DNA from: Bradyrhizobium sp. CCGUVB4N
Lineage (GTDB): Bacteria; Pseudomonadota; Alphaproteobacteria; Rhizobiales; Xanthobacteraceae
Assembly (NCBI RefSeq): GCF_024199945.1
Contig: NZ_JANADP010000001.1
Location: 2,108,001 to 2,172,000 of the forward strand
DNA: 64,000 nt
Direction: 5' to 3'
Part shown: positions 4,531 through 21,565 of the stretch, one piece after another
Layout of the letters: every line of letters starts with the position of its first letter
Position numbering within the stretch: the stretch's first letter is position 1
Made by a program: the position numbers and the translations under genes
The notes under the pieces: model-generated
What the model was told of the DNA's origin: nothing
The model's database searches: none
Seen by the model: the letters and a program-made list of their open reading frames with translations, nothing else

Positions 4531-4640
4531 TGCCGCAAGTCCTTCGAAGGATTTGTATCTGTGGATGAGCTATTGCTGATCTCGGCAAGCTCTAGCCCGA
4601 CATTCGGCCAGCAATCAGTGACACACGTTCGTCATTTGGA

Positions 4641-4664
4641 TCAATTGCTAGTAATGGTAGTTGA
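4641..4664 (-). promoter_or_regulatory. 24-bp dyad operator, copy 1 (methyltransferase operon)
   Basis: Read on the minus strand: TCAACTACCAT-TA-CTAGCAATTGA. Half-sites follow TCAA-N3-CCA. Copies at 19604-19627 and 21542-21565 share most positions and have the same orientation relative to the gene downstream. This copy lies 110 bases upstream of the methyltransferase start. The binding protein is unknown. Confidence 0.6.
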
Positions 4665-5158
4665 CCTTTCGCAAACTCTTGCGTCCAGCACGATGTTGTA
4701 GGAGTGACGGCCAAGCGCCGAAAATCACAAGCTGCACATGCGAGCACCGTTAACTCCTTCTCACTAACAATCGCAAGGCTCGGCAATCGATGTCTGCGGA
4801 GTACTTTTGGATATGCTTAGCGATGATACGGGTCGCGACGCTCGTTCGAGGCAGTGCAAGAGGGGGCCAACACCGAATTTGGTTGGCGCGCAACCTCTTG
4901 TGTGCGCTTATCGGTCGCATTCCGGTTCGCGGTCGAACCGCTGTCGCGGTGTAGCGAAATGTATCCGGCTCTAGAGCGCGGTCTTCTCGATACATACAAG
5001 CGGTCTTCTCGACTCATCGAAAAGGCTGCGACTCGCGTTGGCGGCGCTGTCGCACCTCTGACGTATGTCGCAACTGCTTCAAAGCACGTGAGGCATCGCA
5101 ATTGATCGCGGACGCCTACTTGTTGTCTTTACGCTTGACTAGCGCGACCTGTGGGTAC
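4665..5158. other. no gene recognised
   Basis: Intergenic DNA between the divergent methyltransferase operon and the monooxygenase operon. No convincing coding sequence. Two imperfect NifA-type upstream sites (TGT-N10-ACG) were seen near 4694 and 5049; neither matches the TGT-N10-ACA consensus fully. Confidence 0.5.
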
Positions 5159-5174
5159 TGGTACGATACTTGCT
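5159..5174 (+). promoter_or_regulatory. sigma-54 (-24/-12) promoter
   Basis: TGGTACG-ATAC-TTGCT matches the RpoN consensus TGGCACG-N4-TTGCW with one change. The essential GG (5160-5161) and GC (5172-5173) have the obligatory spacing. It lies 40 bases before the monooxygenase ATG, which has the strong site AGGAGGAG. In a rhizobium, NifA or another enhancer-binding protein would activate it; no perfect TGT-N10-ACA was found upstream. Confidence 0.65.
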
Positions 5175-5213
5175 GTTCTCCTCGCCAGCTCTCAAAAGCA
5201 CGCAGGAGGAGAA

Positions 5214-6222
5214 ATGAACCGGACCACGATCGGGGCCAGTGGTGGAAATGGCGTGCATGCGACAGCGAAATTCGACGCCGTGGTCATCGGCGCCGGCGTC
5301 GCCGAGCTTTATCAACTCTACCCCCTGCGAGAGTTCGGGCCGCACGTCAGGGCGATCGATGCGGCCTTGGGTGTCGGCGGCACGCGGTATTGGAACCGAT
5401 ATCCCGGTGCGCGCGTCGATTCAGAAGGCTACGTCTATCCGTACATTTTGTCCGAAAGTCTCTACAAAGGATGGAGCCGGAGCGAAAAGTGTCTGAGCCA
5501 ACCGGAAATCGAGCGCTGGCTGAATTACGTAGCGGACGAACTTGATCTGCGCAAAGACATTCAGTTCGGCATGACCGTCCAGAGCGCTCATTTCAATGAA
5601 GCGGCCGAACGATCGGTGGTCGCGATCAACAAATGCCCGAGCGGCTAAGGGATTCTAAGCTGTGCGACCTGCTGATCCCAGCCGAATATGGATTCGGTAC
5701 CCATCGAGTCCCTTTGGAGCAGAACTTCCTCGATGCATTCAATCGGCACAACGTGGGAATTGTTAGCGTCAAGACCAACGCAATCGAGCGCATCGCGGCC
5801 GAAGGCATCCAGATGGCCGACAGCATGACTCACCCGCTCGACGTCATCATCTTGGCGACCGGGTTCGACGCAGGAACGGGCGCTTTGACCCGCATCGACA
5901 TCCGCGGTCGCGATGGACGGCAGAGACGTTCGGACCAAGGTCGAGTGGATAATCGAATGCATCAGCCACCTCCGTGGCAAGAACTTGAACGTGATCGAGC
6001 TGACCAAAGAGGTGGAAGATCAATGGGTCGCACATCAGGATGAGACTGCCAAAGAGATGTTAATCGCCAAGACTAATTCCTGGTACTAACTCCTGGTACT
6101 TGGGATCGAACGTCGAAGGGAAGCCGCGTCGGGTTCTCTCCTACACGGACGGCGTTGGCAGCTATCGACAAGAATGCGACGAAGTCGCAGCAAGCGGCTA
6201 TCAGGGCTTTGCCATGCACTAG
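5214..6222 (+). pseudogene. Baeyer-Villiger monooxygenase (flavoprotein), decayed
   Basis: The start follows a strong ribosome-binding site. The first 130 codons encode the FAD-binding N terminus (A-V-V-I-G-A-G-V-A, then G-G-T-R-Y-W-N-R-Y-P-G-A-R-V-D-S typical of cyclohexanone-type monooxygenases). About 200 residues are then missing, and the frame changes near 5640 to a later segment (D-V-I-I-L-A-T-G-F-D, L-T-R-I-D-I-R-G). A second deletion with frame change falls near 5915, followed by the C-terminal region (N-S-W-Y ... G-K-P-R ... C-D-E-V-A-A-S-G-Y-Q-G-F). A 13-base tandem duplication at 6078-6100 creates a stop inside that region. Intact relatives insert oxygen next to ketones using FAD and NADPH. 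The gene is dead, but its order with CoA-transferase, BKACE and transporter genes points to a former ketone or ring-cleavage pathway. Confidence 0.85.
6078..6100 (+). repeat. 13-bp tandem duplication inside the monooxygenase remnant
   Basis: TCCTGGTACTAAC is followed at once by TCCTGGTACT. Removing one 13-base unit restores the reading frame N-S-W-Y-L-G-S-N, so it is a recent frameshifting duplication. Confidence 0.85.
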
Positions 6223-6951
6223 CTCCAAAATTAAGCCGAATCCGGCGCGAGCAGGCCCGAGATTCGAGAGTTCCACTTGATGGTGGTTTTTACTTGGGAA
6301 AATGGCACCGTGACGGGAGCATTATCAGATCTGCGGGTCGTCGAGATTGGCAGCGCGGCGGTTACTAGTACCGCTCCACAGAGATTATGACTCCTTGACG
6401 GGATAGGCTTTGTGGAGTTTTTCGCGAGCCTTCTCGGTAGTGAACATCCATTGGATTTGAGCGCCTTCGGCGTTGCGCCGCTGTTGCCAAGCGGCGACCT
6501 CGGCGAGGATGGTTTCCTTGTCGTCGATGCGGCGGTCGAGGCATTGGCTGCGCAGGACGCCGATTTCGATTTCCACCATATTCAGCCAGCTGGCGTGTTT
6601 CGGGGTGTGGTGGAACTGAAGCCGCTTCAGCACCCGGCGAGCCTCCGGTGCGGGGAAGGCGTCGTAAAGCGCCCCGGTTGAGTGGGTGGAGAGGTTGTCC
6701 ATCACCACCCGGATGATCGGGGCGTCGGGATAGTCGATATCGACCAACTCGCGCATGCACTCGGCGAAGTCTTGGTTGGTGCGCCGGTCGGTGACCTTGA
6801 CTCGGCGCCAGGGACGGTGGGCGTCGAGGAAGACGAACAGATTGACGGTGCCGTTGCGGCGATATTCGCAGTCGTAGCGCTCAAGCTGGCCCGGCTTGGC
6901 GGCAATGGGCTCGCGCACCTCGCCGATGAGTTGGGTCGGACTCTCGTCGAA

Positions 6952-8666
6952 GATTCCATGGGGAGTGGATAGCGACTAGGTCTGAGGCCAGACTGAGGTT
7001 GCTGAATCCCTTCAACCTGGAGAACGACGATGTTGCTCGATCATCATTCCGACGGACCGGCCGCTATCCGCACGCAGTTTGGCGCAATTTTTGTGTCGTT
7101 GGAACTGAGCCGTTCGACTTGGCTGGTTACCTCGCTATCGCCCGGCAAGAGCGAGAAAATGTCCAAACGCAGCGTGAAGGCCGGCGATATTGCGGAACTC
7201 TTGAAGCTGTTCGCAGAGCTAAAGCGCAAGGCGCAGGCGCGAACGGGTGAGAGCTATCCGATCATTACGATCCAGGAGGCGGGGCTGGATGGGTTCTGGC
7301 TTCACCGCAGTCTGCAGCAGGAGGGCATCGAGAGCCACGTGGTGGATCCGGCCTCGATCGCGACTTCGCGCCGGCGCAGGCGGGCCAAGACGGACAGGCT
7401 GGATGGCGAGACGCTGCTGCGGGCGCTTTTGGCCTACAAGCGCGGCGAACCGCGGGTCTGCGCGATGGTCGTTGCTCCCTCTCCGGAAGAAGAGGACCGC
7501 CGCCGGATTTGCCGTGAGCGGCGGACATTGATCGCTGAGCGGATCGAGCATGTGAACCGGATCAAAGGCCTTCTGTTCGCGCAAGGGATATCTGATTACG
7601 CGCCGTTGCGGCGCGACCGGCGGGCGCGCCTTGAGGCCCTGCGTACGGGGGACGGTCGCGCACTGCTGCCGCATCTCAAAGCGCAGGTCAGTCGCGAACT
7701 CGATCGGCTCGAACTGCTGCTCGACCAGATCAAGGCAGTGGAGGCCGCGCAGGATGCTCTCCTGGTCGAGGCGGGAAAGCCAGCCGGCGAGAAGAAGGGC
7801 GCAGCGGACCCGGTCACAATGCTGCTCGCCTTGAAGGGAATGGGCGCCAACTTCGCCGGGGTTCTCTGGTCGGAGGCCTTCTACCGCCACTTCGCCAACC
7901 GTCGTCAGGTTGCTGCCTATGCCGGTCTTGCGGCCACGCCATGGCGGAGTGGCGGTATCGAACGCGAGCAGGGCGTGTCGAAGGCCGGCAATCCGCGGCT
8001 GCGCACAACCATGGTCCAGCTCGCCTGGCTCTGGGTGCGCCACCAGGGACAATCGGCTCTGGCGCAGTGGTTCAAGGCGCACAGCCAGCGCGGCCGCAAG
8101 CGTGCGATCGTGGCGCTGGCGCGCAAGCTGCTCGTGGCTCTGTGGAAGTACGTGACCGCAGGCGTCGTGATTGAGGGAGCCGTGATGAAGTCCGTCGCCT
8201 AACACAAGCGCTTTCCCCCGCAAACTCAAAACCAATCTGCCGAGGTTCGATCAGCCTCGGCCGATCCGGGTGGACGAACCGATGGTCTGCATGGCTTCAA
8301 AAAGCCGCGTCGAAGAATGGTCTCGTCCTCTCGAGCCTGCCCGCCGCAAGCGGAATGTTGGTGCAGTTGCCTCGCGCGACGACCGAATGTGAGTTTGATC
8401 TGGCAAGTAAACCAGATTGCCAAAACCGGGCTCGACTTGGATCGCCATCGAAAAAAGGAGCTATCTGGCCTGCCTACGCCCGACCACATCAGCCTGATGG
8501 CGTGCTCGATCAAGTCAAGGCCAAGCCGCTGCGCGGCGGCCCTACGGGCCGGCCTTGACTTGATCTGCGCGCCCCATCTCCAAAGCTCCAAGGTCGGGAC
8601 GAAGAGCTGGCCTGCCATCGAACAAAGAGCTGACCAACCACCTTGACACACTCAATCCCCATGTGA
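6952..8666 (+). mobile_element. IS110-family (IS1111-like) element nested in the IS630 transposase
   Basis: Boundaries come from the exact join of the two IS630 transposase halves. Imperfect subterminal inverted repeats are visible (CCATGGGGAGTG on the left; reverse complement CACATGGGGATTG on the right), as in the IS1111 subgroup. No target duplication was seen, as is usual for the family. The element carries one transposase gene. About 460 bases follow the gene before the right end. Confidence 0.75.
7030..8202 (+). CDS. IS110-family transposase
   Basis: 390 residues, intact. The N-terminal DEDD-type catalytic domain is recognisable: I-Q-E-A-G-L-D-G-F-W-L-H, V-V-D-P-A-S-I, and R-A-K-T-D-R-L-D-G. 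The C-terminal Transposase_20 domain has L-L-A-L-K-G-M-G-A-N-F-A, Y-A-G-L-A-A-T-P-W, and the serine region S-K-A-G-N-P-R-L-R. The enzyme excises and inserts its element by a Holliday-junction-like mechanism. It is the likely active component of this nested pair, since the IS630 gene is broken. Confidence 0.9.
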   Translation: MLLDHHSDGPAAIRTQFGAIFVSLELSRSTWLVTSLSPGKSEKMSKRSVKAGDIAELLKLFAELKRKAQARTGESYPIITIQEAGLDGFWLHRSLQQEGIESHVVDPASIATSRRRRRAKTDRLDGETLLRALLAYKRGEPRVCAMVVAPSPEEEDRRRICRERRTLIAERIEHVNRIKGLLFAQGISDYAPLRRDRRARLEALRTGDGRALLPHLKAQVSRELDRLELLLDQIKAVEAAQDALLVEAGKPAGEKKGAADPVTMLLALKGMGANFAGVLWSEAFYRHFANRRQVAAYAGLAATPWRSGGIEREQGVSKAGNPRLRTTMVQLAWLWVRHQGQSALAQWFKAHSQRGRKRAIVALARKLLVALWKYVTAGVVIEGAVMKSVA

Positions 8667-9254
8667 GCAGACCACAGGTCGTTGGGGATCGGGCGCCTCG
8701 GCATAGAGGTCGAGCACATCCTCCATGCGAGCGACGTATTCCCCGTCAACCTTGGGGATGCACCACATGTCTTTGCGCCAGGGCTTCAGATGGTTCTCCG
8801 CCAGCCGTCGACGGACGGTCTCAGAAGACAGCTCTTCATGGTCGGTGAGCCGGACCATCTCATCGGCCAGCAGCTCAAGGGTCCAGCGGGCCCGTCCCGG
8901 TGGCGGCTTTGAGCAGGCGGTCGCCACCAGGAGCGCCTCCTCCTTGCTCGATAATTTGCGTGCTACCCCAGGGCGCGGCTCCTCGGAGAGCGCACCCTCA
9001 AGGTTCGCCTCCACGAAACGGCGCTTGGTCCGATAAATCGTCGATCCTGAGACCTTCAAGGTTGCGGCGATTGCCTCGTCGCTCAAGCCGTCGTTCGCCG
9101 CCACGAGGATCTGCGCGCGTTTTATTTTGCGCGTCGCGTGGCGTCCCCCGCTCAACAAAGCGTCAAGTTGATCACGTTCCGATTGGCTAAGGTCGACACG
9201 AAACTTTATATTCAACTGCACCTCCTTAAGCGTCGAGGCGCGGATGAATCGGAA

Positions 9255-9527
9255 ATGAGTCAAACACTTGACGAAAGCCCCGCGGCGGCCGGACCCCGCT
9301 TTACGCAGACCCAAGGCCAGTACCTAGCCTTCATCTACGCCTATAGCCGGATCTTCAAACGGCCCCCGGCCGAAGCCGACATGCGTCGCCATTTCGAGGT
9401 CACCGCTCCCACCGTCCACCAGATGGTGCTGACCTTGGAAAAAGCCGGGCTCATCACACGCGTGCCCGGAGCTGCCCGAAGCATCCAACTTCTCGTCCCT
9501 CCGGAAGCCTTGCCGATTTTGCGCTAA
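9255..9527 (+). CDS. LexA-like winged-helix DNA-binding protein carried by the IS630 element
   Basis: 90 residues from the ATG at 9255. The sequence T-Q-T-Q-G-Q-Y-L-A-F-I-Y-A-Y through P-P-A-E-A-D-M-R-R-H-F, P-T-V-H-Q-M-V-L-T-L-E-K-A-G-L-I reads as the wHTH of LexA N-terminal domains, with no protease domain. It lies inside the IS630 element, divergent from the transposase start at 9215, with 39 bases between them. A plausible role is control of the transposase promoter; this is inference. Such small HTH genes do accompany some IS630 elements. The frame is open and appears intact. Confidence 0.6.
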   Translation: MSQTLDESPAAAGPRFTQTQGQYLAFIYAYSRIFKRPPAEADMRRHFEVTAPTVHQMVLTLEKAGLITRVPGAARSIQLLVPPEALPILR

Positions 9528-11922
9528 AAAAATCCGTCATCATCTCTGTGGAACGGTACTAGCTATTGCGCGCGATTGTTCGCCGACTTCGGCGCGGATG
9601 TGCAGAAGATCGAGCCGCCGGCCGGCGATCCACTTCGCTATTTCGCGCCGCTCACTCCAATGGGCCAGAGCGCTTGGTTCGCGTTCCTGAACTTTAATAA
9701 GTCAAGCACGATCATCGATCCCGCTGCCCCGAATGCGATCGCGCGGCTGACTACAATGATCGAGAATTGCGACAGTCTAATTGACGGCAGGGACATTGAT
9801 CCGGCGGATTGCCCGTCCATTGACGTCGCTGGGATCCGCCAACGGCGGTCCAGATTGATTTCCCTCCAAGCGAGCTGGTTCGGCCGCGAGGGTCCTTATG
9901 CAGGATTTGCCGCAACCGATACGACGATCCGCGCGCTCGCCGGCCTCATCAAGCTGGTTGGACCGGTCGAGGGTCCACCATTGCACGCACCGGATTTCCA
10001 GACTGGTATCCTCGGTGGCCTGTGGGGGTTCATCGCCGCAGCTTCTTCGGCGGTTGCGCAAATCGAGGGCGAAGCTGGGCCGTCGTGGTCGGTCAGTATC
10101 TTCGAATCGAGTATCGCTGTCAGCGAATATCTCATGTTCGAGGCGTTTGCGCGCGGCGAGGTCGTGCATCGGATTGGTATTAACCGCTTCTGGCCGGTGT
10201 TCCCGGGCGGCATTTACGAAACCAAGAAAGGCTGGCTCGGCGTGACGACATTTACGCCGGCGCAGTGGCGCGCATTCTGTGACATGCTCGGCCTGTCCGG
10301 CTTGCGCGATAATCCGGCGCTGGTCCTTGGCGAAGAGCGTCTGAAGCACATCGATCGGATCGAACCACAGTTCGTGCCGAAGCTGAAGGCTCGGACAGCG
10401 CAGGAGTGGTTTGCAGAGGGACTGAAGCGGAGAATCCCGATCGTGCCGGTGCCCGACATGTCCGATCTGCTCCTCGATACCGAGAAGAGGGCGCGGCGCA
10501 ATCGTGCCTGTCGCCCTTGGTCAAGAAGAGGGCAGGACCGCTGGGTCGATGCAGCGGCTAACCTTGACGCCGCCGCGCCGCGGAGGCAAGGCTCCGGCGC
10601 CCGGCGAGCAGCAACCTTTCGCCGAAAACCGAAAGCAGCGATCTTTGGCTGTGTCGTGGACGCCCAGGAGCATCGGTGCCGGCCGGCAGCCCTTGCGTGG
10701 GGTTCGCGTCATTGACTTCACGATGGGCTGGGCTGGCCCGTTGTGTACGCGTACCCTGGCTGATCTTGGTGCGGACGTCATCAAGATCGAATCCACCCAG
10801 TACCCGGATTGGTGGCGCGGTGTTGACCGGCGGCCCGCTTACGTCGACGCGCAGATGTACGAAAGGGCGCAAGCTTTCTGCATAATGAACCGCAACAAGC
10901 GCGGCATCACGCTTGACCTCACACAGCCCCAAGGCCTTGCTCTTGCCAAGCGTCTCTTGGTGAGGGCCGATGTTGTCGTAGATAATTATTCTGTTGATGT
11001 GCTGCCGAAACTCGGGCTTGGCTACGATGTGCTCCGAACGCTCAATCCTCGACTTGTCATGTTGTCCATGTCAGCGTTTGGTGCGAAAAGCCTCTATCGC
11101 GATTGTCGTGCCTACGGCTCCACCCTGGAGCAGGGTTCTGGGTTGCCGAACGTCGTCGGAAACATGGATGGACCACCAGTGATGAGCCACGTCGCCTTTG
11201 GGGATGCCGTGGGTGGATTGAACGGTTGTGCTGCAGTTCTGGTCGCGCTGTTTCACGCCCGCAATACCGGGCTGGCACAGTTCATCGACCTTGCCCAGAT
11301 CGAATGTATGATGCCGTTTGCCGCACCGTGGATCACTGTTCACTCGATCAGCGGTATGCCTCCGCCAAGATACGGTAATCGACATCCCCAGTTCGTGCCG
11401 CATGGCTGCTTCCGCTGCGCGGGTGAGGACAGCTGGGTCATGGTAGCCGCAAGCGACGAGGACATGTGGCAAAGGCTTGCTATCCTCATTGGACGGTCAG
11501 ACTGGGCGATAGACGCCTCGCTGAGATCTGCGGAAGCTCGCCCCGGCATTGAAGACGAAATGGAGAGGGCCATCGAAGCTTGGACGATTACCCGCGATGC
11601 GGATCAGGCCATGTCAGAGTTGCAGGCGGAACGAATTGCGGCCGGCGTGGCCCGACAGCCAACTGACCTGCTCGAGGACCCACATCTCAGGTCGCGCGCA
11701 TTTTTCCAGGATATCGAACGTGCCTTCATCGGCATGCACCCACAGCCCTCAATACCGATCCGCGACGTCTCATTGCCCTTTGCGATCCGTACAGCGGCAC
11801 CAACGCTCGGAGAGCACAACAGCGAGATCCTATCGGAACTTCTCGGGCTTTCCGAGACGGAGATCGCGCAATTGGCGTTGGAAGGCATCATCGGGACGTC
11901 GATGGTCTCCGAGCGAAACTAG

Positions 11923-12549
11923 CAAAAGCAAGTGACGTCTCGTGAATATGATAGATCGGCCGCCCATTTCGTTTCCAAGGACTTATGAAACCAGCACAAG
12001 GCACAGCATGCCTGGAGCGGCGTCCTCGACGTTACCTCGACCGGAGACTGAATGTTATTTCTATGCAGTATCGTCACCTGATCGGATAGAGGCGACGCCA
12101 ACCCCTAATAAAGTTGCTTCTTAATCTCTTGCTCTGAGCCTTTCAGGCCGTTTATCGCACTGCAGGAGTTGAACCAACGCATCCGCTGCGTACTGCCCCA
12201 AAGAGCTTTTCGCGCCAATTTCGTGTTCGCAGGATTTGAAGCGGGCGACGACAGCTCGTCCTGACCGCAGGCGCGCCCGCGCGATTACCGGCGATAGATC
12301 CCAGCTATGTCCTTCAACGAAATCCAATGGTCTGGCAATTGGCCCAGCTCTTGCTCCACGGCTTACCGCCACCGTGAAGCTTCACCGCCGGAATTGTCTG
12401 CCGTAGAGCATTCCAATGCGAGATGCTTTCAGTGTGTCAAACGAATGATAGGTCGAAAGCGCGACCTCACTCATCAGTGAGGGCTGGATTCACATCGCCA
12501 TGCTGCTTTTGACGCTATCTCGCCTCAAGCACATGGGAGGGAGAATGGC
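11923..12549. other. no confident gene
   Basis: Between the CoA-transferase remnant and the YWTD gene. A short minus-strand open stretch near 12121-12372 could be the tail of a decayed gene, but no family is recognisable. The strong site GGGAGGGAGA just before 12550 belongs to the next gene. Confidence 0.4.
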
Positions 12550-13473
12550 ATGACCGACGCTGATGCGACCAACTCGGATCTCTCGCCCGAGCGGGACTTC
12601 TCAGTTCGTCGACGACTATTCTTTCTCGAGGTGAGTACCAACCGTATTCAAGCGATGAATCCGGATGGTTCCGGTAGAAAGGTTATTGTCGCCGATTGTC
12701 AGCTTCCTGACGGAATCGCCATCGATGTCGGCAATAGTCGCATCTATTGGACCAACATGGGGTCCGGCGTCGCCGTCAATGATGGTTCGATCGAGCGTGC
12801 AAATATCGATGGAAGCGCTCGCAAAGTCATCGTTCCGCCCGGCGTCACGTTCACACCGAAGCAGATCCAGATCGATCAGAAAGGCGGCAAGCTCTATTGG
12901 TGTGACCGCGAAGGGATGCAGGTTATGCGGTGCAATCTCGACGGCTCTGAGATAGAGACGCTGATCGAGGCAGGCCGCGGTGACATGGACCGGCGCGACC
13001 CGACCAGGTGGTGCATCGGCATCACGATCGACACCGAGCGCCGCAAAATCTACTGGTCGCAAAAAGGTCCTGACAATGCCGGCCGGGGCCGGATCTTCCG
13101 CGCCGACTTTGACATCCCCAAGGGCGAACACCCGGCAAACCGCTCCGACATCGAGGTGCTGTTCAATGGCTTGCCGGAACCGATTCACCTTGAATTCGAT
13201 CTGGCAAACCGCGTGCTCTATTGGACCGACCGCGGAGATCCCCCGCGCGGCAACACAGTCAATCGCGCACGAGTCGACATAACGACGGAGCCAGAGATCC
13301 TGATCACGCACCTGATGGAGGGTATCGGCATCGCACTCGACGTTGCCGGCAACCAGATGTTCATCACGGACCTCGCCGGTTCGATCTATACCGCCGATCT
13401 CGATGGAAAGAACAAGCGCAATCTCCTTTGGTCCCAGGGAAATTTCACCGGAATCGCGTATACGGAAATTTAA
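12550..13473 (+). CDS. YWTD-repeat beta-propeller protein (SMP-30/LDL-receptor-like)
   Basis: 307 residues with repeated strand motifs of six-bladed YWTD propellers: R-I-Y-W-T-N, K-L-Y-W-C-D, K-I-Y-W-S-Q, V-L-Y-W-T-D and D-G-S-G-R-K, D-G-S-A-R-K, D-L-D-G-K-N turns. No signal peptide is seen, so it is probably cytoplasmic. Bacterial proteins of this type often sit in catabolic operons and are thought to act as lactonase- or hydrolase-like enzymes; the reaction here is unknown. A Baeyer-Villiger monooxygenase upstream would produce a lactone or ester, so a lactonase-like role fits but is inference. A good ribosome-binding site precedes the ATG. The gene is intact although the two genes upstream are broken. 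Confidence 0.75.
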   Translation: MTDADATNSDLSPERDFSVRRRLFFLEVSTNRIQAMNPDGSGRKVIVADCQLPDGIAIDVGNSRIYWTNMGSGVAVNDGSIERANIDGSARKVIVPPGVTFTPKQIQIDQKGGKLYWCDREGMQVMRCNLDGSEIETLIEAGRGDMDRRDPTRWCIGITIDTERRKIYWSQKGPDNAGRGRIFRADFDIPKGEHPANRSDIEVLFNGLPEPIHLEFDLANRVLYWTDRGDPPRGNTVNRARVDITTEPEILITHLMEGIGIALDVAGNQMFITDLAGSIYTADLDGKNKRNLLWSQGNFTGIAYTEI

Positions 13474-13914
13474 CCCATCGAGGAATTGAAATGACCGTAA
13501 ACAAGCCAGTTTCGGCAAGGCGCCGTCGTCGGCATCAACCTGTTGGCACGAGCTGGACGGCGCTGTTTGCCACAAGATCACAGATCCTCGCAAACCACAT
13601 GGCACAGAAGGCAGAAGGCACGCTGAGGCAGTTCGCGGCGCCCGACACTCAAGCGGTTGGGCCGCGCGCCCGAAGCGCCGCTCTCGACGCGCAAAGTTCG
13701 CGACCTCCCCCCCTTAAGGTGCCGGCGGCGTTGTTCTCGTCTGGAGCAACGAGCTAGAACGGCTCAAACGACCGGGATGAACGCCAGGCGTTGGAGGCTT
13801 CAACTTGCCGCAGAGGCTACTTCCGGCCCGGGCGTCTAGCGTCAAAGCGTTCTTGAGCGAAGTGGTCAGATCCGCCCATAAGTGACTTCAGCAATCGATG
13901 TCAGGAGATGCAGT
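13474..13914 (+). other. degenerate coding remnant or spacer
   Basis: An ATG at 13491, with AGGAATTG upstream, opens an 88-codon frame rich in Arg and Ser that resembles nothing recognisable. A different frame nearby reads V-V-G-I-N-L-L-A-R-A-G. It is probably the remains of a gene between the propeller and BKACE genes. The last 20 bases carry the ribosome-binding site CAGGAGATG of the next gene. Confidence 0.3.
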
Positions 13915-14808
13915 ATGAACGTTAAGCGCAAGATTATTGTCACGATTGCGCCAACGGGAGGCGTGGTGAAAAAATCAAAAAACCCGCACCTTCCGACCCA
14001 GCCCAGCGAGATCGCCGAGGATGTGTATAGGTGCTACGATGCGGGCGCATCTATTGTGGCGTTGCATGCGCGCAGGCAGGACGATGGCGCGACCTGTAGT
14101 TCGGAGATCTACCAGGACATCAACTCACGGATCCGGACAAAGTGCTGTATCGTGATCAATAACAGCACGGGCGGGGGTATCGATGGAGATATGGTGCGAT
14201 CCATAGGGCCCGGGCTCGATGAGGTTATATTCGAACAGCGTCTACAAGGCTTCGAAGCCGGCGCTGACATGGCGACATTTGGCGCTCATACCGTTCTGGC
14301 CAGCTTTGGTGGCCGCGAGATTTTCGTTAACACCTCGCCCACCCGCTGCGACATCATGGCAAAACGATTCCAAAAAACGGGCATCAAGCCTGAATGGGAA
14401 TGTTTCTCACTTTCTCATCTTCTCCAAGATCCGATACGCCTCATCAACAAAGGGTTCGACAAACCGCCCTATTGGATCAATTTCGTTCTTGGCGCCGATC
14501 GCGGAATCCAGGGGGGATTACCGTACACTCCGCAGATTCTCGATATGCTCATCGGGAATCTTCCAAAAGGAGCGATGTTTTGCGTTAGCGGGGTCGGTCG
14601 AGCTCAGTTGCCGGCCACAACTCATGCGGTGCTCGCCGGCGGCCACGTTCGCGTCGGACTCGAAGACAATCTGTATCTCGAACCGGGTATACTTGCCACT
14701 AACGTGCGGCTCGTCGAGAGAACGGTAAGAATTATCCGAGAACTCGGGTACGAGCCAGCCACCGCGGTGGAAGCGCGGACAATGCTCGGGCTTGCGCCAC
14801 GCAAATAG
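13915..14808 (+). CDS. beta-keto acid cleavage enzyme (BKACE, DUF849)
   Basis: 297 residues, start at 13915 behind AGGAGA. The TIM-barrel BKACE signature is present: I-I-V-T-I-A-P-T-G-G at the N terminus, Y-D-A-G-A-S-I-V-A-L-H-A-R with the Zn-ligand His, I-N-N-S-T-G-G, and R-V-G-L-E-D-N with the catalytic-region Glu. The usual H-x-H zinc pair appears as H-A-R, so one ligand may be altered. The family condenses a beta-keto acid with acetyl-CoA to give acetoacetate and a new acyl-CoA, using Zn. In this cluster it would act after ring or ketone cleavage and CoA transfer. The substrate is unknown. Confidence 0.85.
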   Translation: MNVKRKIIVTIAPTGGVVKKSKNPHLPTQPSEIAEDVYRCYDAGASIVALHARRQDDGATCSSEIYQDINSRIRTKCCIVINNSTGGGIDGDMVRSIGPGLDEVIFEQRLQGFEAGADMATFGAHTVLASFGGREIFVNTSPTRCDIMAKRFQKTGIKPEWECFSLSHLLQDPIRLINKGFDKPPYWINFVLGADRGIQGGLPYTPQILDMLIGNLPKGAMFCVSGVGRAQLPATTHAVLAGGHVRVGLEDNLYLEPGILATNVRLVERTVRIIRELGYEPATAVEARTMLGLAPRK

Positions 14809-15025
14809 TCCGGTGTCGATAGTTCCCAATCGAAATTACGCGTTGGTCCGATGGCCGGCTCTCGACAGCTCCTGAGCATGAGCGTCAATCGTGGAAAATG
14901 TTGTCGATCATTGAAATGGACGATCGCCACCTGTGGCAAAGGTTCTCGAGTCAACCTGGTATCGTCGCGCGGCTTCGGTCCTCGAAGGAGGCGTGTCGTC
15001 GGCACAATTTGTAGGAGCAGAACGA

Positions 15026-16348
15026 GTGATAGTCTCCGTTGCTGCCCAATGTCATACCAACGATGAGGCGAGCTCTAACCTGGTCGCGAGCGCCGTTGCC
15101 AAAAACACGCTGCGGCTGGTGCCACTTTTGGGTCTTGCCTATCTCTTCAACAACCTTGACCGGACCAGCGTCGGTATCGCTGCGTTGCAGATGAACGAAG
15201 CCATTGGCTTGAGCGCCTCACAATTCGGCTGGGGGGCGGGGATCCTCTTCTTTGGTTACTGCGTGCTGGAAGTCCCCAGCAACATGATGATGTATCGTTT
15301 CGGCGCGCGCCGCTGGCTCGCCCGCATTATGATAACCTGGGGCCTAGCAGCCGCGGCGACGGCGTTCGCCGTTGGACCATACAGTTTCTACGTGATCCGC
15401 TTCCTTCTGGGCGTGTTTGAAGCAGGCTTCTTCCCCGGCGTCATTTGGTACATCTCAATTTGGTTTCCGGCGCGAAACCGAACGGGCGTTCTTGCCTGGT
15501 TCATGGCTGCAACACCCCTGTCCGCGTTGATCGGCAATCCAGTCTCGGCTTTGCTATTAGAAATGGACGGTGTGTGGAGGCTGGCCGGCTGGCAGTGGAT
15601 GTTTTTGATCGAGGGCCTTCCGGCCTGCCTGCTCGGGGTTCTATGCCTCGTCCTGCTTGCCGACACGCCGGACAAGGCCTCGTGGCTGACGCCCACCGAG
15701 CGTGATGTGTTGCTGAACGAGCTCGCAAGGGAGAAGGACAAGAAGGTCAAGAAGGATCTCTGGGCCGCGATAAAGGACGTCCGCGTGCTCATGTTGACGG
15801 GCATCACTTTCGCATTCACGATCGGTTCTTATGGAATCGGCGTCTGGCTCCCCCTGATGTTGAAGAGCCACGGCTTGAGTAACACGCAGGTCGGTTGGCT
15901 CTCGGCGGTGCCCTATCTCTTTGTCACGATAGGCATGTTGTTCTGGGCGCGCCATGTCGATCGTAAAGGGTACAGGATCTACAACCTGATCGCTGCATTG
16001 ATGCTTGGCGCGACCGGACTTGTCGTTTCGGTGATGTTCACCTCTCTCGTGTCGGCGCTCACATGCATGACGCTTGTTCTGATCGGCACGATCTCCGCGC
16101 GGACGATCCTCTACACGATGCCGCAGAGCTTCCTTACCGGCGCTGCTGCTGCCGGAGGCATCGCATTCATCAATTCCATTGGTGCCTTTGGCGCCTTCGT
16201 CGGCCCGTACATGGTTGGCGTTCTTAAGGATGCGACGGGATCCTTTGATATCGGTATGATCGCAATGGCATTCATTCTGGTTGTTGCCACTGGCATTGCC
16301 CGCAGCCTTAGGCTGGTGATTACGTATGGTGATAACGTTCCTTTCTGA
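15026..16348 (+). CDS. MFS transporter, anion:cation symporter (ACS)-like
   Basis: About 440 residues with 12 hydrophobic segments. The N-terminal part N-N-L-D-R-T-S-V-G-I-A-A-L is the ACS-family R-x-x-x-G-x-A signature; E-V-P-S-N and the segment R-F-L-L-G-V-F-E-A-G-F-F-P-G are also typical. ACS transporters import organic anions such as aromatic acids, tartrate or phthalate. The GTG at 15026 was chosen because AGGAG precedes it and the upstream residues are not transporter-like; the frame is open to 14933. It closes the catabolic cluster and is the likely uptake system for its substrate. Confidence 0.8.
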   Translation: MIVSVAAQCHTNDEASSNLVASAVAKNTLRLVPLLGLAYLFNNLDRTSVGIAALQMNEAIGLSASQFGWGAGILFFGYCVLEVPSNMMMYRFGARRWLARIMITWGLAAAATAFAVGPYSFYVIRFLLGVFEAGFFPGVIWYISIWFPARNRTGVLAWFMAATPLSALIGNPVSALLLEMDGVWRLAGWQWMFLIEGLPACLLGVLCLVLLADTPDKASWLTPTERDVLLNELAREKDKKVKKDLWAAIKDVRVLMLTGITFAFTIGSYGIGVWLPLMLKSHGLSNTQVGWLSAVPYLFVTIGMLFWARHVDRKGYRIYNLIAALMLGATGLVVSVMFTSLVSALTCMTLVLIGTISARTILYTMPQSFLTGAAAAGGIAFINSIGAFGAFVGPYMVGVLKDATGSFDIGMIAMAFILVVATGIARSLRLVITYGDNVPF

Positions 16349-16643
16349 GCGGACCGCCCGAGTAGAGGCCCCTCCAACCAATCGTTTAGCCGCAGCCGTA
16401 GCTTCTGCTGAACGATCGATTGGAGATCGCTGCTGCTTCTCCCATCGTCTGCAACGGTCCTCTCCGGGCTCCTGGCAGATGCAATCGGCCGGGCCCGCGC
16501 ATCTCGCTGCCGGGCGACCCCAGAGAGGCTGCAATGGGCGCGACCGCTCGCTCGGCGGAAATGTGATTTGCGCGGAGGTCCGGCATTTGATCCAGAAACG
16601 AATCGGCACTCCGCAACTCCTAACTACCGAGCTCGCACTTGCA

Positions 16644-18974
16644 TCAAGGCCCCCTGCGAAGTTCGCGCGCCGCCGCGACCATGTTGATGAGCGCAGGGCG
16701 GACTTCCTCCCATTTGCGGGTCTTCAGGCCGCAATCAGGATTGATCCAGAGCTGCGAGTCCGACAGGCGTTGGCGGGCCAAGGCGATGAGATCTCCGATC
16801 TCAGTGGCTTCGGGAACGCGCGGCGAGTGGATGTCATAGACGCCGGGACCGATGTCGTTGGGGTATTTGAAGGCCGTGAACGCGTCGAGTAGCTCCATCT
16901 TCGAACGCGACGTCTCGATCGAGATGACATCTGCGTCCATCGCGGCAATTGCATCGATGATGGCGTTGAACTCCGAATAGCACATGTGGGTGTGGATTTG
17001 CGTCGCATCTGCAACGCCGGAGGAGCAGATGTGGAAGCTTTCCACTGCCCAGTCGAGATAGGCCTTCCAGTCGGATCGGCGCAGCGGCAGGCCTTCGCGT
17101 AGCGCGGCCTCGTCGATCTGGATCATGGTCGCGCCAGCCTTTTCGAGGTCGCCGACCTCGTCGCGGATCGCAAGCGCGATCTGGCGGCAGGTGTCGCTGC
17201 GCGGTAGGTCATCGCGGACGAATGACCAGTTCAGGATCGTCACCGGTCCGGTAATCATTGCTTTCATCGGTTTTTTGGTCAGCGATTGCGCGTAGCGCCA
17301 CCATTCGACAGTCATGGGCTTCGGTCGCGAGACATCGCCGAACAGAACCGGCGGGCGAACGTAGCGCGAGCCGTAGGACTGCACCCAGCCGTATTGGGTG
17401 AACACGAAGCCGGAGAGCTGCTCGCCGAAATACTGCACCATGTCGTTGCGCTCGAATTCGCCATGCACGAGCACGTCGAGGCCGATGTCTTCCTGCCACT
17501 GCACCGTACGGGCCGTCTCCGCTTTGAGGAATTGCTCGTATCGCGCGTCCGTCAGTTTGCCCTTGGCATGAGCGGCGCGAGCGTTGCGAACGTCGGCGGT
17601 TTGCGGGAACGAGCCGATCGTCGTCGTCGGAAAGGCCGGCAGACCAAAGCGCTTGCGCTGGACCTCTGCGCGGTTGGCAAAGGCGCTGGTTCGGCGACGC
17701 ATGGCGTCGTCGATCGTCGCCATTCTCTGTGCAACGATCGCGTCGTGGATCTTCGGGGAAGTCTCGCGCGCCGTCGCCGCAAGATCGGATGCGGTCAGCG
17801 CGGCTGCGACACTCGCCTCGCCTGCGAGCGCCCTCGCGAGAATCGTGAGCTCGCCGATCTTCTGCACCGAGAAGGCAAGCCAGCTCTTCACGTCCGGATC
17901 GAGATCGGTCTCGAGCTCAAGATCGATTGGGACATGCAGGAGCGAGCAGGAGGGCGCGAGCTGCACGCGATCCCTGCCGAACTTTGCAATGACGGGTTTG
18001 AACCGCTCGATCAGTGCCGATAGGTCAGAACGCCACACGTTGCGGCCATCGATGACGCCGAGCGAAACCACGAGGTCGGCGCGGGCGCCGCATTCAATCT
18101 GGCTCAATTGTTGGGGAGCTCGGATAAGATCGACATGCAGCCCAGCCACAGGCAGGCCCAGACCGGTCGCGAGGTTGTCGCCGATCGCCCCGAAATAGGT
18201 GGCCAGCATGACCTTGATGTCAGGTACCTCCTTGGCGAGACAGCCATAAGCGCGCTGAAGCGCATTCCGCGTGGTCTCGTCGAGATCAAGCACCAGGCAC
18301 GGCTCGTCAAGCTGGACCCATTCGGCTCCGCGTTCTGCCAGTTCCTTGAGAACCTCGACATAGACTGGCAGGAGACTATCGAGCAGCGAGATCGGATCAA
18401 ACGCCAGATCAGCGCTCTTGCCGAGCTTCAGGAAGGTGACCGGTCCTACCAGAACCGGACGCGTTTGATAGCCAAGGGCTTTGGCCTCCTCATATTCCTC
18501 GATCGGCTTTCGCGAGGAGAGCCTGAAGGTCTGACCTTTATGGAATTCGGGCACCATGTAATGGTAGTTGGTATCGAACCACTTGGTCATCTCCTGCGCG
18601 GCGACCCCGCCGGCGTCATGGGGGTGACTGCTACTTGCTTCATGCTCCCCGCCTTGAGAGCCGCGCGCCATGGCGAAATAGGTCTTCAGCGGGACCGGAC
18701 CTACCTTCCAGCCATACGCCTCGGGAATGGCGCCCACCATGACGCTCGTATCGAGAACCTGATCATAGAGTGAAAAGTCATTTGAGGGGATGACGGTGAC
18801 GCCAAGCGAGTGCTGACGCGCCCAGTTGGCGACACGAAGACCGGCCGCCGCTTCAAGAAGTTGCCGGCAGCTGATCTTGCCGGCCCAGTAGCCTTCGAGT
18901 GCCGACTTGAGTTCGCGGCGCGGCCCGATACGTGGCATGCCGAGAGTTGCGGCAGGAAGTGAGAGAAGAGACAT
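16644..18974 (-). CDS. metE: cobalamin-independent methionine synthase
   Basis: 776 residues from the ATG at 18974. It transfers the methyl group of 5-methyltetrahydropteroyl-triglutamate to homocysteine. Both halves of the duplicated (beta/alpha)8 protein are visible: the N-terminal domain begins G-M-P-R-I-G-P-R-R-E-L-K and the catalytic domain begins L-P-A-F-P-T-T-T-I-G-S-F-P-Q-T. Zinc ligands are in H-M-C-Y-S-E-F and in N-P-D-C-G-L-K-T-R. The frame is intact. A full cobalamin riboswitch lies about 120 bases upstream on the same strand and should shut the gene off when B12 is present, so the cell must also have a B12-dependent MetH or a B12 source. It is unrelated to the catabolic cluster that converges on it. 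Confidence 0.95.
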   Translation of the reverse strand: MSLLSLPAATLGMPRIGPRRELKSALEGYWAGKISCRQLLEAAAGLRVANWARQHSLGVTVIPSNDFSLYDQVLDTSVMVGAIPEAYGWKVGPVPLKTYFAMARGSQGGEHEASSSHPHDAGGVAAQEMTKWFDTNYHYMVPEFHKGQTFRLSSRKPIEEYEEAKALGYQTRPVLVGPVTFLKLGKSADLAFDPISLLDSLLPVYVEVLKELAERGAEWVQLDEPCLVLDLDETTRNALQRAYGCLAKEVPDIKVMLATYFGAIGDNLATGLGLPVAGLHVDLIRAPQQLSQIECGARADLVVSLGVIDGRNVWRSDLSALIERFKPVIAKFGRDRVQLAPSCSLLHVPIDLELETDLDPDVKSWLAFSVQKIGELTILARALAGEASVAAALTASDLAATARETSPKIHDAIVAQRMATIDDAMRRRTSAFANRAEVQRKRFGLPAFPTTTIGSFPQTADVRNARAAHAKGKLTDARYEQFLKAETARTVQWQEDIGLDVLVHGEFERNDMVQYFGEQLSGFVFTQYGWVQSYGSRYVRPPVLFGDVSRPKPMTVEWWRYAQSLTKKPMKAMITGPVTILNWSFVRDDLPRSDTCRQIALAIRDEVGDLEKAGATMIQIDEAALREGLPLRRSDWKAYLDWAVESFHICSSGVADATQIHTHMCYSEFNAIIDAIAAMDADVISIETSRSKMELLDAFTAFKYPNDIGPGVYDIHSPRVPEATEIGDLIALARQRLSDSQLWINPDCGLKTRKWEEVRPALINMVAAARELRRGP

Positions 18975-19094
18975 AGCTTTAACCCCATTATGGTGATGGT
19001 GGGGGCAAAGGCCATGGCGGACGCGGGCAGGAGGGCCGCGAAAGCGCCTGCTGCTTGGCGTACCACCGGACACCCCGCCCGTGGACGTTTATGT

Positions 19095-19292
19095 TGTCGG
19101 GGCAGGTCTCCTGGCTCGCGGGTCATCGTCTGCATCCGGCCTTCCCGAAGCATCTGCTTCAGTGACACGTATGGATGCGGACTCGCTGCTTACAGTTGCG
19201 GGGGCAGCGCCGGCATTACTTCAATCCTGAATGGATCGTGAGTGCACCGGCTTCCCTCTTAGCTCCAGATCGAGCGAGACCTGGAGAACCTC
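19095..19292 (-). ncRNA. cobalamin (B12) riboswitch of metE
   Basis: Minus-strand landmarks in order: GGTTCTCCAGG at the 5' end, GAGGGAAGCCGGTG, the core CTGCCCCCGCAACTGTAAGC, GTCACTG with CGGGAAGGCCGG, and the B12 box GAGCCAGGAGACCTGCC at 19101-19117. All main conserved blocks are present and correctly ordered, about 200 nt in total. It precedes metE, a classic target. Confidence 0.93.
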
Positions 19293-19603
19293 GACGTCAT
19301 CGATTTATCCGCAACCGAGGCGGTGCGTCAACCTCGGAGGAGGACCGCCTCTTCTGCGGCATGCTTCCGAGAATACGGCCTCAACAATGGAGGTCACTCC
19401 AAACGAACAGCTTGACGATAGGGTGCAAAGCCAAAGTTGACCAGCGCCCCTGACGGCCATTGTTGTCGATAGGCTTGGCTGCCCTGTCCTTCCGATCTCA
19501 AGCGTTCTCATGTCCTTCTCCAACGTCATGAGTTTCTTGCTCGCTCGGCACGGGCGGCAATTTCTGCATCGATCGTCAAGCGAAGTAAACCCTTGTGCCC
19601 CGG
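19293..19603. other. no gene recognised
   Basis: Region between the divergent metE leader and the dioxygenase promoter. Open frames on both strands are short and unlike known proteins. The metE promoter should lie near its left edge. Confidence 0.4.
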
Positions 19604-19627
19604 TCAACTACCAATGTTAGCAATTGA
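19604..19627 (+). promoter_or_regulatory. 24-bp dyad operator, copy 2 (TauD/TfdA gene)
   Basis: TCAACTACCAA-TG-TTAGCAATTGA. Near-perfect dyad TCAA-N3-CCAA-N2-TTxG-N3-TTGA. It is about 220 bases upstream of the dioxygenase ATG and in the same orientation as copies 1 and 3. The flanks also match copy 3 (CCGGTCA before; AAC-GGC after). Confidence 0.6.
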
Positions 19628-19845
19628 TCGAACCGGCAGATCGGTCAATCATGGATGAAAGACCGTCACGTAGGCCACACCTCACCTGTCGCAGACCCCG
19701 TAAAGAGTGCACGAGGGGGCTCGTCGCCGTCACCGTGGAGTTTGGCGGATCCCGCTATGCGGTCCAGCAATCTGGCGTTCGACAGCTCCTATCGCAGCTG
19801 AATAGCTGGCCTGGCGAACAAGGCGCGAATTTGGAGAGTGCCGCT

Positions 19846-20754
19846 ATGAGTGCAACGGACTTGTCGGACAATGTCATTCCTCGCGCCGACATCGTCAAAC
19901 GGGGAGCGCGCATCGGAGCGGAAATCCGAAACATCAAGCTGTCGGGCGATCTGCCGGACCAGACGATCGCCGCAATCAACGAGCTGCTGCTCGAGAATAA
20001 GGTGGTCTTTTTTCGCGACCAGGGTCATCTCGATGACGCCGAGCAGGAACGTTTTGCTCTTCGTTTCGGAAGTCCGGCATGTCATCCGACGCTCGGTGCC
20101 ATTAAGGGGACGGCGTCGATTGTCGAGCTTGACTCGGTCCGCGCCGGTAGCCGGGCCGACCTATGGCACACCGATGGAACCTTCGTCGACCGCTACCCTA
20201 AGATCGCGGTGCTGCGAGGCGTCGTGATGCCACCGTTCGGTGGCGATACGGTTTGGTCAAACACCGTTACAGCCTACCTCGACCTGGTACCGCCGCTGCA
20301 ACGGCTTGCGGACAAGCTCTGGGCCGTGCACAGCAACGCCTTCGACTACGCGATAATGCCCCGCGCCAGCGAGCTCGACAAGAAGCACTTGGACGAAGTC
20401 TTCACAAAAACGATCTATCAGACTGAGCATCCAGTTGTGCGCGTCCACCCCGAGACCGGCGAACGCACGCTACTCCTCGGCGCCCTGGTGCAACGTTTTA
20501 TTGGCGTCCCGAAATACGACGGCCAGAAGCTGTTTGATCTGTTTCAGTCTCATATCACTGCGCTCGAAAACACCGTGCGCTGGAGTTGGAAGGAAGGCGA
20601 TGTGGCGATGTGGGACAATCGCGCCACACAACACTACGCGGTGAACGATTATGGCGATCAGCATCGGGTCGTTCGACGCGCCACCGTCGTGGGCGAGGTA
20701 CCCGTCAGCATCGATGGTCAGAGCAGCGTAACGCGCATCAAGACAGCAAAATAG
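19846..20754 (+). CDS. TauD/TfdA-family Fe(II)/2-oxoglutarate dioxygenase
   Basis: 302 residues from the ATG at 19846, preceded by GGAGAG. The double-stranded beta-helix fold is recognisable: V-V-F-F-R-D-Q near residue 55, the iron site H-T-D-G-T-F, then G-G-D-T-V-W-S-N-T, and the distal D-N-R-A-T-Q-H-Y-A with the third iron ligand and R-R-A-T-V near the end that binds 2-oxoglutarate. The family hydroxylates taurine, alkyl sulfates, 2,4-D and many secondary-metabolite precursors, releasing sulfite or aldehydes. The substrate is unknown. A TauE/SafE exporter lies 7 kb away, which would suit a sulfonate role, but the link is weak. The same dyad operator precedes the methyltransferase operon and the porin. 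Confidence 0.85.
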   Translation: MSATDLSDNVIPRADIVKRGARIGAEIRNIKLSGDLPDQTIAAINELLLENKVVFFRDQGHLDDAEQERFALRFGSPACHPTLGAIKGTASIVELDSVRAGSRADLWHTDGTFVDRYPKIAVLRGVVMPPFGGDTVWSNTVTAYLDLVPPLQRLADKLWAVHSNAFDYAIMPRASELDKKHLDEVFTKTIYQTEHPVVRVHPETGERTLLLGALVQRFIGVPKYDGQKLFDLFQSHITALENTVRWSWKEGDVAMWDNRATQHYAVNDYGDQHRVVRRATVVGEVPVSIDGQSSVTRIKTAK

Positions 20755-21138
20755 CCGACCGTGAAGGTTGCCTAGTCTAGCCGGTCAACTGGATTGACGT
20801 CGGTCCGGCGATGCAGCCTCTACCATTGCCATCCATCCCTGTATGCAGCATTCGGCAGCTCGGTCCGCCATCGCATTCAATGGTGTCATTGAAAGCCATC
20901 GTGCCAGCTCTTAACCCAAGAGCGGCTTGGATTCCCGGAGAGGCTGCATCGGGTTGTTTGAGCTGAGTAGAGCTGCAAATGAGTGAACCGCAAGAGGCGG
21001 AACGTGGCTTTGTCGCTTCGCCACAGGGGCGCTTTCGAAGGAATGCCCTCCCCTTAGGTTTCCTGCGCGTCTCGAGATCGGCTTTCTCCTGCGTATTGGC
21101 CTCGAGACCTGCCGAGCCCCGTCCCTTCTGAACCAGAG
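20755..21138. other. no gene recognised
   Basis: Downstream of the dioxygenase. A short GGTCAACTGGATTGACG palindrome near 20787 resembles the half-sites of the dyad operator but lacks its CCAA/TTGG core. No coding sequence supported. Confidence 0.4.
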
Positions 21139-21440
21139 TCAGCTCGCGCCGTTCGTCTTGGGCGAGTCAAAAATGCCGTCCAATCCATAGCTATTCAGCA
21201 GACTGAGGGTGTCGTCTATCCCCGCGAACTTACTGCGCGGTCAACAACACCGCGTTGCCGCTCTGCAAGCGTTTCCGCGGTGGTCGATCCCGTGTCTTTG
21301 CGAAGCGCGCTATGAGCGGGAAAGCCAACCTCTTCCAGCAGACGATCCGACGACTTCGTGGCGACGACGCCAAGAGCGTGCTTTTCGCGTCTCAGTGTCT
21401 GTAAACGAGCCAACGTCCTGAAATGGCTGTTACATCCACC
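21139..21440 (-). pseudogene. unidentified decayed coding sequence, C-terminal part
   Basis: Two minus-strand frames join across about base 21215 into a protein-like tail: one with L-L-E-E-V-G-F-P-A-H, L-R-K-D-T-G-S-T-T-A-E-T-L-A-E-R-Q, the other with A-G-I-D-D-T-L-S-L-L-N-S-Y-G-L-D-G-I-F-D-S-P ending at a TGA at 21139. The amphipathic pattern and low-complexity-free composition look like a real protein with one frameshift. I do not recognise the family. Confidence 0.4.
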
Positions 21441-21541
21441 TCTCGGCGCGCGGAACGCCGTGGAAAGAGCGAGTATCCAATCGATCGCGCAGGCCGTTGG
21501 AAATTGAGCACGCGCATTGATAGGAAGCGCCTTGCTCCCGG

Positions 21542-21565
21542 TCACCTACCAACCTTGGCAATTGA
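21542..21565 (+). promoter_or_regulatory. 24-bp dyad operator, copy 3 (porin gene)
   Basis: TCACCTACCAA-CC-TTGGCAATTGA. The core CCAA-CC-TTGG is a perfect dyad; outer arms TCA...TTGA. It ends 68 bases before the ATG at 21634 and shares flanks with copy 2. Confidence 0.6.

Follow-up and report, generated by a model that had tools for sequence, protein, structure and literature searches.

Which regulator reads a 24-bp palindrome that stands in front of three separate loci of Bradyrhizobium sp. CCGUVB4N? The question was raised by a window of 64,000 nucleotides (the whole stretch of DNA analysed here, positions 2,108,001-2,172,000 of a 9.21-Mb single-contig genome), for which an initial annotation had proposed a small undescribed regulon tying together the uptake, oxidation and processing of one metabolite. 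Judging from comparative sequence evidence, the palindrome is probably bound by a LuxR-type solo regulator whose gene lies in the symbiosis region, and would be read within a cascade that runs from NifA/RpoN through this LuxR solo to the box. The boxes of the window and the genes behind them are given below; E-values of the boxes come from a 50-column profile built from the nine copies in this genome, for which all three served as training sequences.

4620..4667, minus strand: box 1 and its promoter-side extension (dyad at 4641-4664), ahead of the O-methyltransferase/phosphonopyruvate decarboxylase/phosphonoacetaldehyde dehydrogenase operon; profile E 2.2e-10
3454..4530, minus strand: O-methyltransferase (Methyltransf_2; PF00891, 4.5e-20), first gene past box 1
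2223..3434, minus strand: phosphonopyruvate decarboxylase (TIGR03297, 339.3 bits, cut-off 312.5)
643..2085, minus strand: phosphonoacetaldehyde dehydrogenase (TIGR03250, 655.5 bits, cut-off 635.65)
19600..19644, plus strand: box 2 and its extension (dyad at 19604-19627), ahead of TauD; profile E 5.2e-10
19846..20754, plus strand: TauD/TfdA-family dioxygenase (PF02668, 5.4e-57 on the longer frame 19624-20751); the start is an in-frame ATG picked by eye that fits homologues
21538..21586, plus strand: box 3 and its extension (dyad at 21542-21565), ahead of OprB; profile E 2.0e-10
21634..23382, plus strand: OprB-family porin (PF04966, 9e-23; start codon uncertain)

Each of the three palindromes lies where the initial annotation had placed it and on the strand given there, with 0 mismatches to TCAMCTACCANNNNTRGCAATTGA, a pattern derived from these three copies themselves. 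The window holds no fourth match to this pattern at up to 3 mismatches, and 100 dinucleotide shuffles yielded 0 matches. The pattern originally proposed, TCAANNNCCAANNTTGGNNNTTGA, locates these palindromes too, with 3, 1 and 1 mismatches in copies 1 to 3, so that the palindrome must be called imperfect and copy 1 the least perfect; its mean in shuffles was 0.15 matches, and no shuffle had 3 matches. All three copies have the same orientation toward their gene, as had been noted, at distances of 110, 218 and 68 nt from the ATG codons at 4530 (minus strand), 19846 and 21634. The reported extension of the match into the flanks also holds, from -2 to about +42 of the dyad start in the nine genomic copies; across 80 dereplicated Bradyrhizobium copies, conservation of the flanks is weak from -11 to +47. 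In a comparison by eye with the consensus sequences of the nod box, the tts box, the FixK box and the NifA upstream activating sequence, no match to the element was seen.

The palindrome is the core of a promoter element of about 45-60 bp. At up to 3 mismatches it occurs at nine places of the genome, all within 1.397-2.130 Mb (a span of 0.73 Mb), and a backward control gave 1 match. In a search of the same genome with the profile, the nine training sites scored E ≤2e-9 (by construction), a tenth site 5e-5, and the next match only 0.4. Random occurrence was rejected on the shuffles, the clustering of the nine sites and this gap in the profile scores, and a mobile repeat on the differing flanks, which bears out the view that the motif is neither random nor a dispersed repeat. 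The consensus dyad, TCAAYTACCA-N4-TGGTNATTGA, is an inverted repeat of about 20 bp; the copy at 1,847,639 and those at the loci of a helix-turn-helix (HTH) protein described below are among the most symmetrical. It overlaps a -35-like TTGATC and is followed about 20 bp further on by a weak -10 region, and in the 80 dereplicated sites a conserved purine, noticed post hoc, lies about 44 bp downstream of the dyad centre. What stands of the proposed regulon is a shared operator directed toward genes. It is neither small nor restricted to the window, given nine strong sites and a truncated one in this genome and up to 14 matches in a relative, and the best-defined theme of its genes is phosphonate biosynthesis rather than the uptake, oxidation and processing of one metabolite.

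How is the element distributed? An exact core was sought in a collection of 84,980 species, in a scan that may miss records very close to this genome, and was found in 111 stretches, 98 of them in Bradyrhizobium. The other 13 are scattered, show no extension when inspected by eye, and were left out of the downstream-gene counts; an arithmetic estimate puts the number of chance matches at about 7.5. Among 251 Bradyrhizobium genomes (at least 90% complete), profile matches at E ≤1e-3 were present in 124, namely in 123 of 139 nodA-positive genomes versus 1 of 112 others. Genomes were called nodA-positive at E <1e-50; 160 had a match at E ≤0.001 and 158 one over the curated cut-off, and 21 weak ones were dropped. 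Motif calls at E >1e-8 may partly represent the second version of the box described below, and a strict cut was set at E ≤1e-8.

A candidate reader lies close to the element. Eight of the 98 Bradyrhizobium site loci carry one LuxR-type protein, of which our genome has an intact, 84% identical copy at 1,640,791-1,641,552, divergent from the site at 1.639 Mb. When the roughly 150 best site matches listed were compared with 45 chosen LuxR matches, mostly top-ranked, the nearest listed site was divergent and 1.2-2.3 kb upstream of luxR in 20 of the 45; in the remainder it was farther away, or none was listed on the contig (8/45). The protein has an autoinducer-binding domain (PF03472, 2.4e-26) and a LuxR-type HTH (PF00196, 4.4e-21), for which the copy in strain USDA110 scores 2e-35 and 1.3e-16, and its nearest solved relatives are CviR, RhlR, QscR and LasR. 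By eye in the CviR alignment, it retains W, Y, D, P, W and G, the set of ligand-pocket residues of TraR. It can be called a solo because all three luxI genes of the genome (at 1718499, 1598738 and 8964732) pair with other luxR genes that adjoin them, and none is near 1640791.

The luxR/luxI pairs of the symbiosis region lie at 1,717,744-1,719,023 and 1,598,738-1,599,986. Dyads unlike the box were found upstream of the luxI at 1718 kb (CCCTGTGCATCTGCACAGGA) and of that at 8.965 Mb (TACTGGGAAATTTCCCAATA), and none near the third luxI (1598738). With these other dyads, and no association among nodA-positive genomes for the one tested, the luxI-paired LuxRs were rejected as box readers. A first idea, that the box is a NodW/NwsB site, led nowhere in the literature.

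Does the solo accompany the box beyond individual loci? With orthologues defined by at least 55% identity (eight genomes with only a 41-42% homologue were scored negative), motif and LuxR occur together in 107 of the 251 genomes, the motif alone in 17, LuxR alone in 11 and neither in 116. Within the 139 nodA-positive genomes the corresponding counts are 107, 16, 6 and 10 (Fisher p=3.9e-5), whereas homologues of a paired LuxR of the island (E ≤1e-50, 45-100% identity) show no association with the motif in the same set (54, 69, 9 and 7; p=0.43). Partial hits of at least 50% identity, which are either LuxR fragments or a protein consisting of the HTH alone, turned up in 12 of the 17 motif-only genomes, and hits of 47-48% identity in two more (G094 and G241). 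At the strict cut, 72 of 76 genomes hold the LuxR or the HTH-only form, the latter as a hand-picked set of 39 genomes; the exceptions are G037, G053, G079 and G132. In G053 an open LuxR remnant of 86 codons (L238 2058-2315), again the HTH alone, lies about 1.7 kb from a strong site, and it may be a recent step toward the sensor-less form.

The HTH-only protein found among these partial hits is a free-standing LuxR-type HTH (PF00196; for example L280 6124-6306). It has about 70 residues and a conserved start, and its recognition helix reads SENTVNFHLKNAMRKL. From a search of the genus we took 30 loci from 30 genomes (L248-L277), the best-scoring of 78 genomes, in which many of the other matches are the HTHs of full LuxRs. 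At 25 of the 30, the dyad TCAAYTACCANNNNTGGTNATTGA lies divergent from the conserved HTH at about 460-500 bp, with 0-2 mismatches in a search that allowed up to 4; the same was seen in 1 of 600 shuffles. The loci in G017, G019, G024, G204 and G113 have no nearby dyad. This second type of box reads TCAACTACCAACGCTGGTCATTGA and variants, followed by a TATGA-like -10, and in the two loci looked at (L280 and L281) PEP (phosphoenolpyruvate) mutase lies beyond it. The two types have the dyad in common but not the 3' extension, and in each a -10-like region follows the dyad at about 20 bp. A helix S[ED]NTVNFHxKNA is likewise common to the solo and HTH-only proteins, and the three paired LuxRs of our genome have other helices. 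In a tree of the HTH, built on few columns and with many unresolved forks, the HTH-only proteins fall into a single clade (100/99) nested within the solo LuxRs.

What might control the solo itself? The pattern TGGYACG-N4-TTGCT, a sigma54-like -24/-12 promoter, occurs with at most 1 mismatch upstream of luxR in 22 of 39 loci (30 of 3900 shuffles), in our genome with 1 mismatch; it had been refined after an earlier look at luxR upstreams, and 29 of the 39 upstream stretches were only 1.5 kb long. When the 300 bp downstream of the dyad were searched for a strict -24/-12-like promoter, 0 of 80 dereplicated sites had one (0.15% in shuffles), and direct sigma54 promoters at the box genes were rejected on this count. 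Between luxR and the PEP mutase site, the DNA appears decayed over 1-2 kb (1,639,524-1,641,552 in our genome; L057 4343-6449). In L057 it holds remnants of an electron-transfer flavoprotein (ETF_alpha, 4e-19), and no such remnants were seen in the single frames tested in our genome and in USDA110 nor in two frames of L128. From the remnants in L057 it looks as if luxR had inherited a sigma54 promoter from a fix-type gene.

Which genes would the element control? At 101 Bradyrhizobium sites with an exact core (100 usable for flank alignment, 80 after dereplication), reference families were counted within 1.5 kb in sense, in place of an earlier protein cluster that had merged aminotransferases with O-methyltransferases. 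Seventy-two sites precede PEP mutase (33), TauD (9), OprB (9), S9 peptidase (9), O-methyltransferase (6) or luciferase-like (LLM) monooxygenase (6), and the same families stand on the mirror side of 4 of the 101. Only these six families are quoted, because several reference proteins stem from these very loci; the references for PEP mutase and S9 peptidase do so as well. The remaining sites of our own genome are as follows.

1.397 Mb: followed by an intact PEP mutase (TIGR02320, 323.3 bits, cut-off 319.55)
1.567 Mb: followed by an MsbA-like ABC transporter
1.639 Mb: followed by a truncated PEP mutase
1.680 Mb: followed by a short PEP mutase-like start (by eye), then a class IV aminotransferase
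1.691 Mb: followed by an NtaA/DmoA-type LLM monooxygenase
1.847 Mb: followed by an apparent PEP mutase remnant (by eye), with an EamA transporter about 1.2 kb further
1,619,989: tenth site, truncated at its 5' end (E 5e-5), preceding an LLM gene broken by an insertion sequence (IS)

At this last locus (1,619,989-1,624,820) an IS-like element cuts the box, and the LLM monooxygenase downstream is broken by inserted transposase sequence.

The cut-offs of the equivalog models TIGR02320, TIGR03297 and TIGR03250 are all exceeded, and therefore one operator stands over the genes for a route from PEP through phosphonopyruvate and phosphonoacetaldehyde to phosphonoacetate, although these are split between two sites separated by 0.7 Mb (the PEP mutase at 1.397 Mb and the operon of the window). 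In other species, for example at L107, the boxed PEP mutase is followed by genes for an NTP transferase, a CDP-alcohol phosphatidyltransferase and an aminotransferase. A phosphonate, a compound with a carbon-phosphorus bond, is the predicted product; the initial annotation's idea of one metabolite, here one common to these enzymes, TauD, OprB and the LLM monooxygenase, is no more than a conjecture. A phosphonate cluster was also seen in a nodA-negative genome (G079, L282), with two PEP mutase genes that each have a box-like site, and with neither the LuxR nor the HTH-only protein.

Published expression data for USDA110 offer a further point of comparison. This genome (G027) has four sites at E <0.01.

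Site A, E 1.8e-7: before TauD
Site B, E 2.7e-6: before an outer-membrane beta-barrel gene at 2.8 kb
Site C, E 1.5e-5: before TauE/SafE
Site D, E 0.006: an OprB frame about 0.7 kb away

The solo is probably blr1880, by position, strand and its being the isolated LuxR of the island (in passages of PMC4070871). By name, strand and approximate place, the genes after sites A and D match bll2125, named taurine dioxygenase in a passage of PMC6321122, and bll2003, named OprB in a passage of PMC8632152; a passage of PMC6515984 names bll2007 HemN. Gene order suggests that the TauE gene is bll2009. In nifA nodules the log2 changes of blr1880, bll2125, bll2003 and bll2009 are -5.0, -5.0, -4.3 and -5.6 (PMC4926349, Table 3). 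This agreement is supportive but no proof, because the NifA-activated list takes in about 17% of the locus numbers 1634-2145 by a hand count.

We envision a scenario whereby NifA/RpoN would drive luxR in the nodule through the -24/-12-like promoter, and the LuxR solo (1,640,791-1,641,552) would bind the palindrome, which in many strains would also be bound by the stand-alone 70-residue HTH relative. The bound protein would then activate transcription, most likely in the manner of a class II lux box, because the box overlaps the -35-like hexamer and the -10 region lies about 20 bp past the dyad. It would thereby switch on PEP mutase, the O-methyltransferase/phosphonopyruvate decarboxylase/phosphonoacetaldehyde dehydrogenase operon, TauD, OprB and others. 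A fuller version, to which we give about an even chance, is a second-tier symbiotic circuit in which the solo, made under NifA/RpoN, would sense a signal in the nodule (conceivably an acyl-homoserine lactone or a plant signal) and act through the element of about 50 bp on phosphonate synthesis, oxygenases, porins and exporters in bacteroids, while in many strains a sensor-less descendant would read the same operator and so uncouple the phosphonate genes from the signal.

Several observations weigh against the LuxR solo as the reader of the box, and some of them would suit another protein. Since the element is nearly confined to nodA-positive genomes, any regulator of the island would correlate with the box, and a regulator unlinked to the sites might read it, with luxR being near merely through the common symbiosis region. 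Of the 17 motif-positive genomes without an intact LuxR orthologue, nine have no HTH-only form either; in G037, G079 and G132 the only LuxRs are distant ones (28-36%), and G079 combines several sites, two of them before PEP mutase genes, with neither regulator nor nodA. LuxR is present without a called motif in the 11 genomes counted above, the Fisher p-values overstate independence because the genomes are related, and in four motif-only genomes (G017, G019, G024 and G204) the HTH-only protein, having no dyad nearby, would act in trans. The conserved 20-bp 3' extension beyond the dyad finds no explanation, and a CT-N12-AG core, given for las-rhl boxes in passages of PMC2018727, is only half present: the left arm begins with CT, and the right arm of the aligned copies has AA or CA, not AG. 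No sigma54 pattern was found in 17 of the 39 luxR upstreams, all 17 of them only 1.5 kb long. In USDA110, the hand-counted share of NifA-activated locus numbers is high, site D is weak and distant from its OprB frame, no match was made in the NifA-activated list for the gene after site B, and a passage of PMC10454721 proposes another, GC-rich motif for blr1880, with its deletion tied to the FixK2/NifA modules. A different reader is nonetheless unlikely in our estimation: the association with LuxR persists inside the nodA-positive set whereas the paired island LuxR shows none, the divergent linkage of luxR and site is recurrent, and the dyad stands again at a separate locus, that of the HTH-only protein.

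If the LuxR solo does bind, it might do so as a repressor that a ligand releases, in which case the signal would induce the genes. A dyad over the -35-like hexamer would fit this as well, and sequence gives no direction; but the weak -10 and the spacing from dyad centre to the conserved purine fit class II activation, as does the joint drop of blr1880 and the matched USDA110 genes in nifA nodules (PMC4926349), and we regard repression as improbable. The strong NifA dependence of those matched genes (PMC4926349) would also be expected if the box genes were direct NifA/sigma54 targets and the box an accessory. With strict -24/-12 matches at 0 of 80 box sites, against 22 of 39 luxR upstreams (there with a looser pattern and longer stretches), this is very improbable. 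Least credible of all is a reading of the box as a dispersed repeat, or as a single PEP mutase promoter that was duplicated and has no regulatory meaning at the other genes. Duplication did spread some copies, because several sites in our genome precede PEP mutase or its remnants (two of these judged by eye); but the flanks differ outside about -11 to +47, the same box stands before unrelated families in many species and nearly always in sense, and the two promoter-side versions of the element have only the dyad in common.

How does this arrangement compare with known systems? Like the lux and las-rhl boxes of LuxR, LasR and RhlR, the element has a dyad of about 20 bp that is often linked to a luxR-family gene and apparently lies over the -35, but here the dyad is embedded in a longer conserved promoter element with a nodulation-linked gene set. 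Like other LuxR solos, the candidate reader joins an autoinducer-binding to a GerE domain without an adjacent luxI. In passages of PMC4070871, blr1880 is an isolated LuxR of the symbiosis island whose possible role is left for investigation; the operator, regulon, sigma54-like promoter and sensor-less relative proposed here were not met in the passages of the literature consulted. With the NifA-RpoN symbiotic regulon the system shares the -24/-12 pattern at many luxR copies and the NifA dependence of blr1880 in nodules (PMC4926349), but the box genes, having no strict -24/-12 just past the dyad, would be second-tier targets. GerE itself is a stand-alone HTH protein. The HTH-only form resembles such proteins in its single LuxR-family HTH domain of about 70 residues, but differs by nesting among the solo LuxRs and lying divergent from the same dyad. 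PEP mutase, phosphonopyruvate decarboxylase and phosphonoacetaldehyde dehydrogenase, all above equivalog cut-offs, are as in known pathways, but here scattered over 0.7 Mb of symbiosis region and joined by a common operator. In keeping with the initial claim that the regulon is undescribed, no description of the box was found in open-literature titles, beginnings of abstracts and passages, a scope outside which most subscription journals fall; passages of PMC5872303, PMC10134790, PMC5977203, PMC8125078 and PMC6478669 have none, and the promoter search in a passage of PMC4842269 yielded only RpoD- and RpoN-like motifs.

If the proposed circuit is correct, blr1880 would gain target genes, an operator and a position within the NifA cascade, filling the role left open in those passages of PMC4070871. 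Late symbiosis would be tied to the sensing of a quorum-type or plant signal, bacteroids would be expected to make phosphonates, and the HTH-only relative would be a natural case of a regulator that lost its input and kept its DNA target.

A few further observations concern neighbouring genes. A search for the S9 peptidase gene at 2.10-2.14 Mb of USDA110 led nowhere. The TauE/SafE-family gene of the window (27559-28389) has no box at up to 3 mismatches, although one TauE/SafE gene of USDA110 has one. Finally, a protein with Ldl_recept_b-type beta-propeller repeats (PF00058, 4.2e-14) is encoded at 12550-13473 of the window, near CoA-transferase and BKACE genes.

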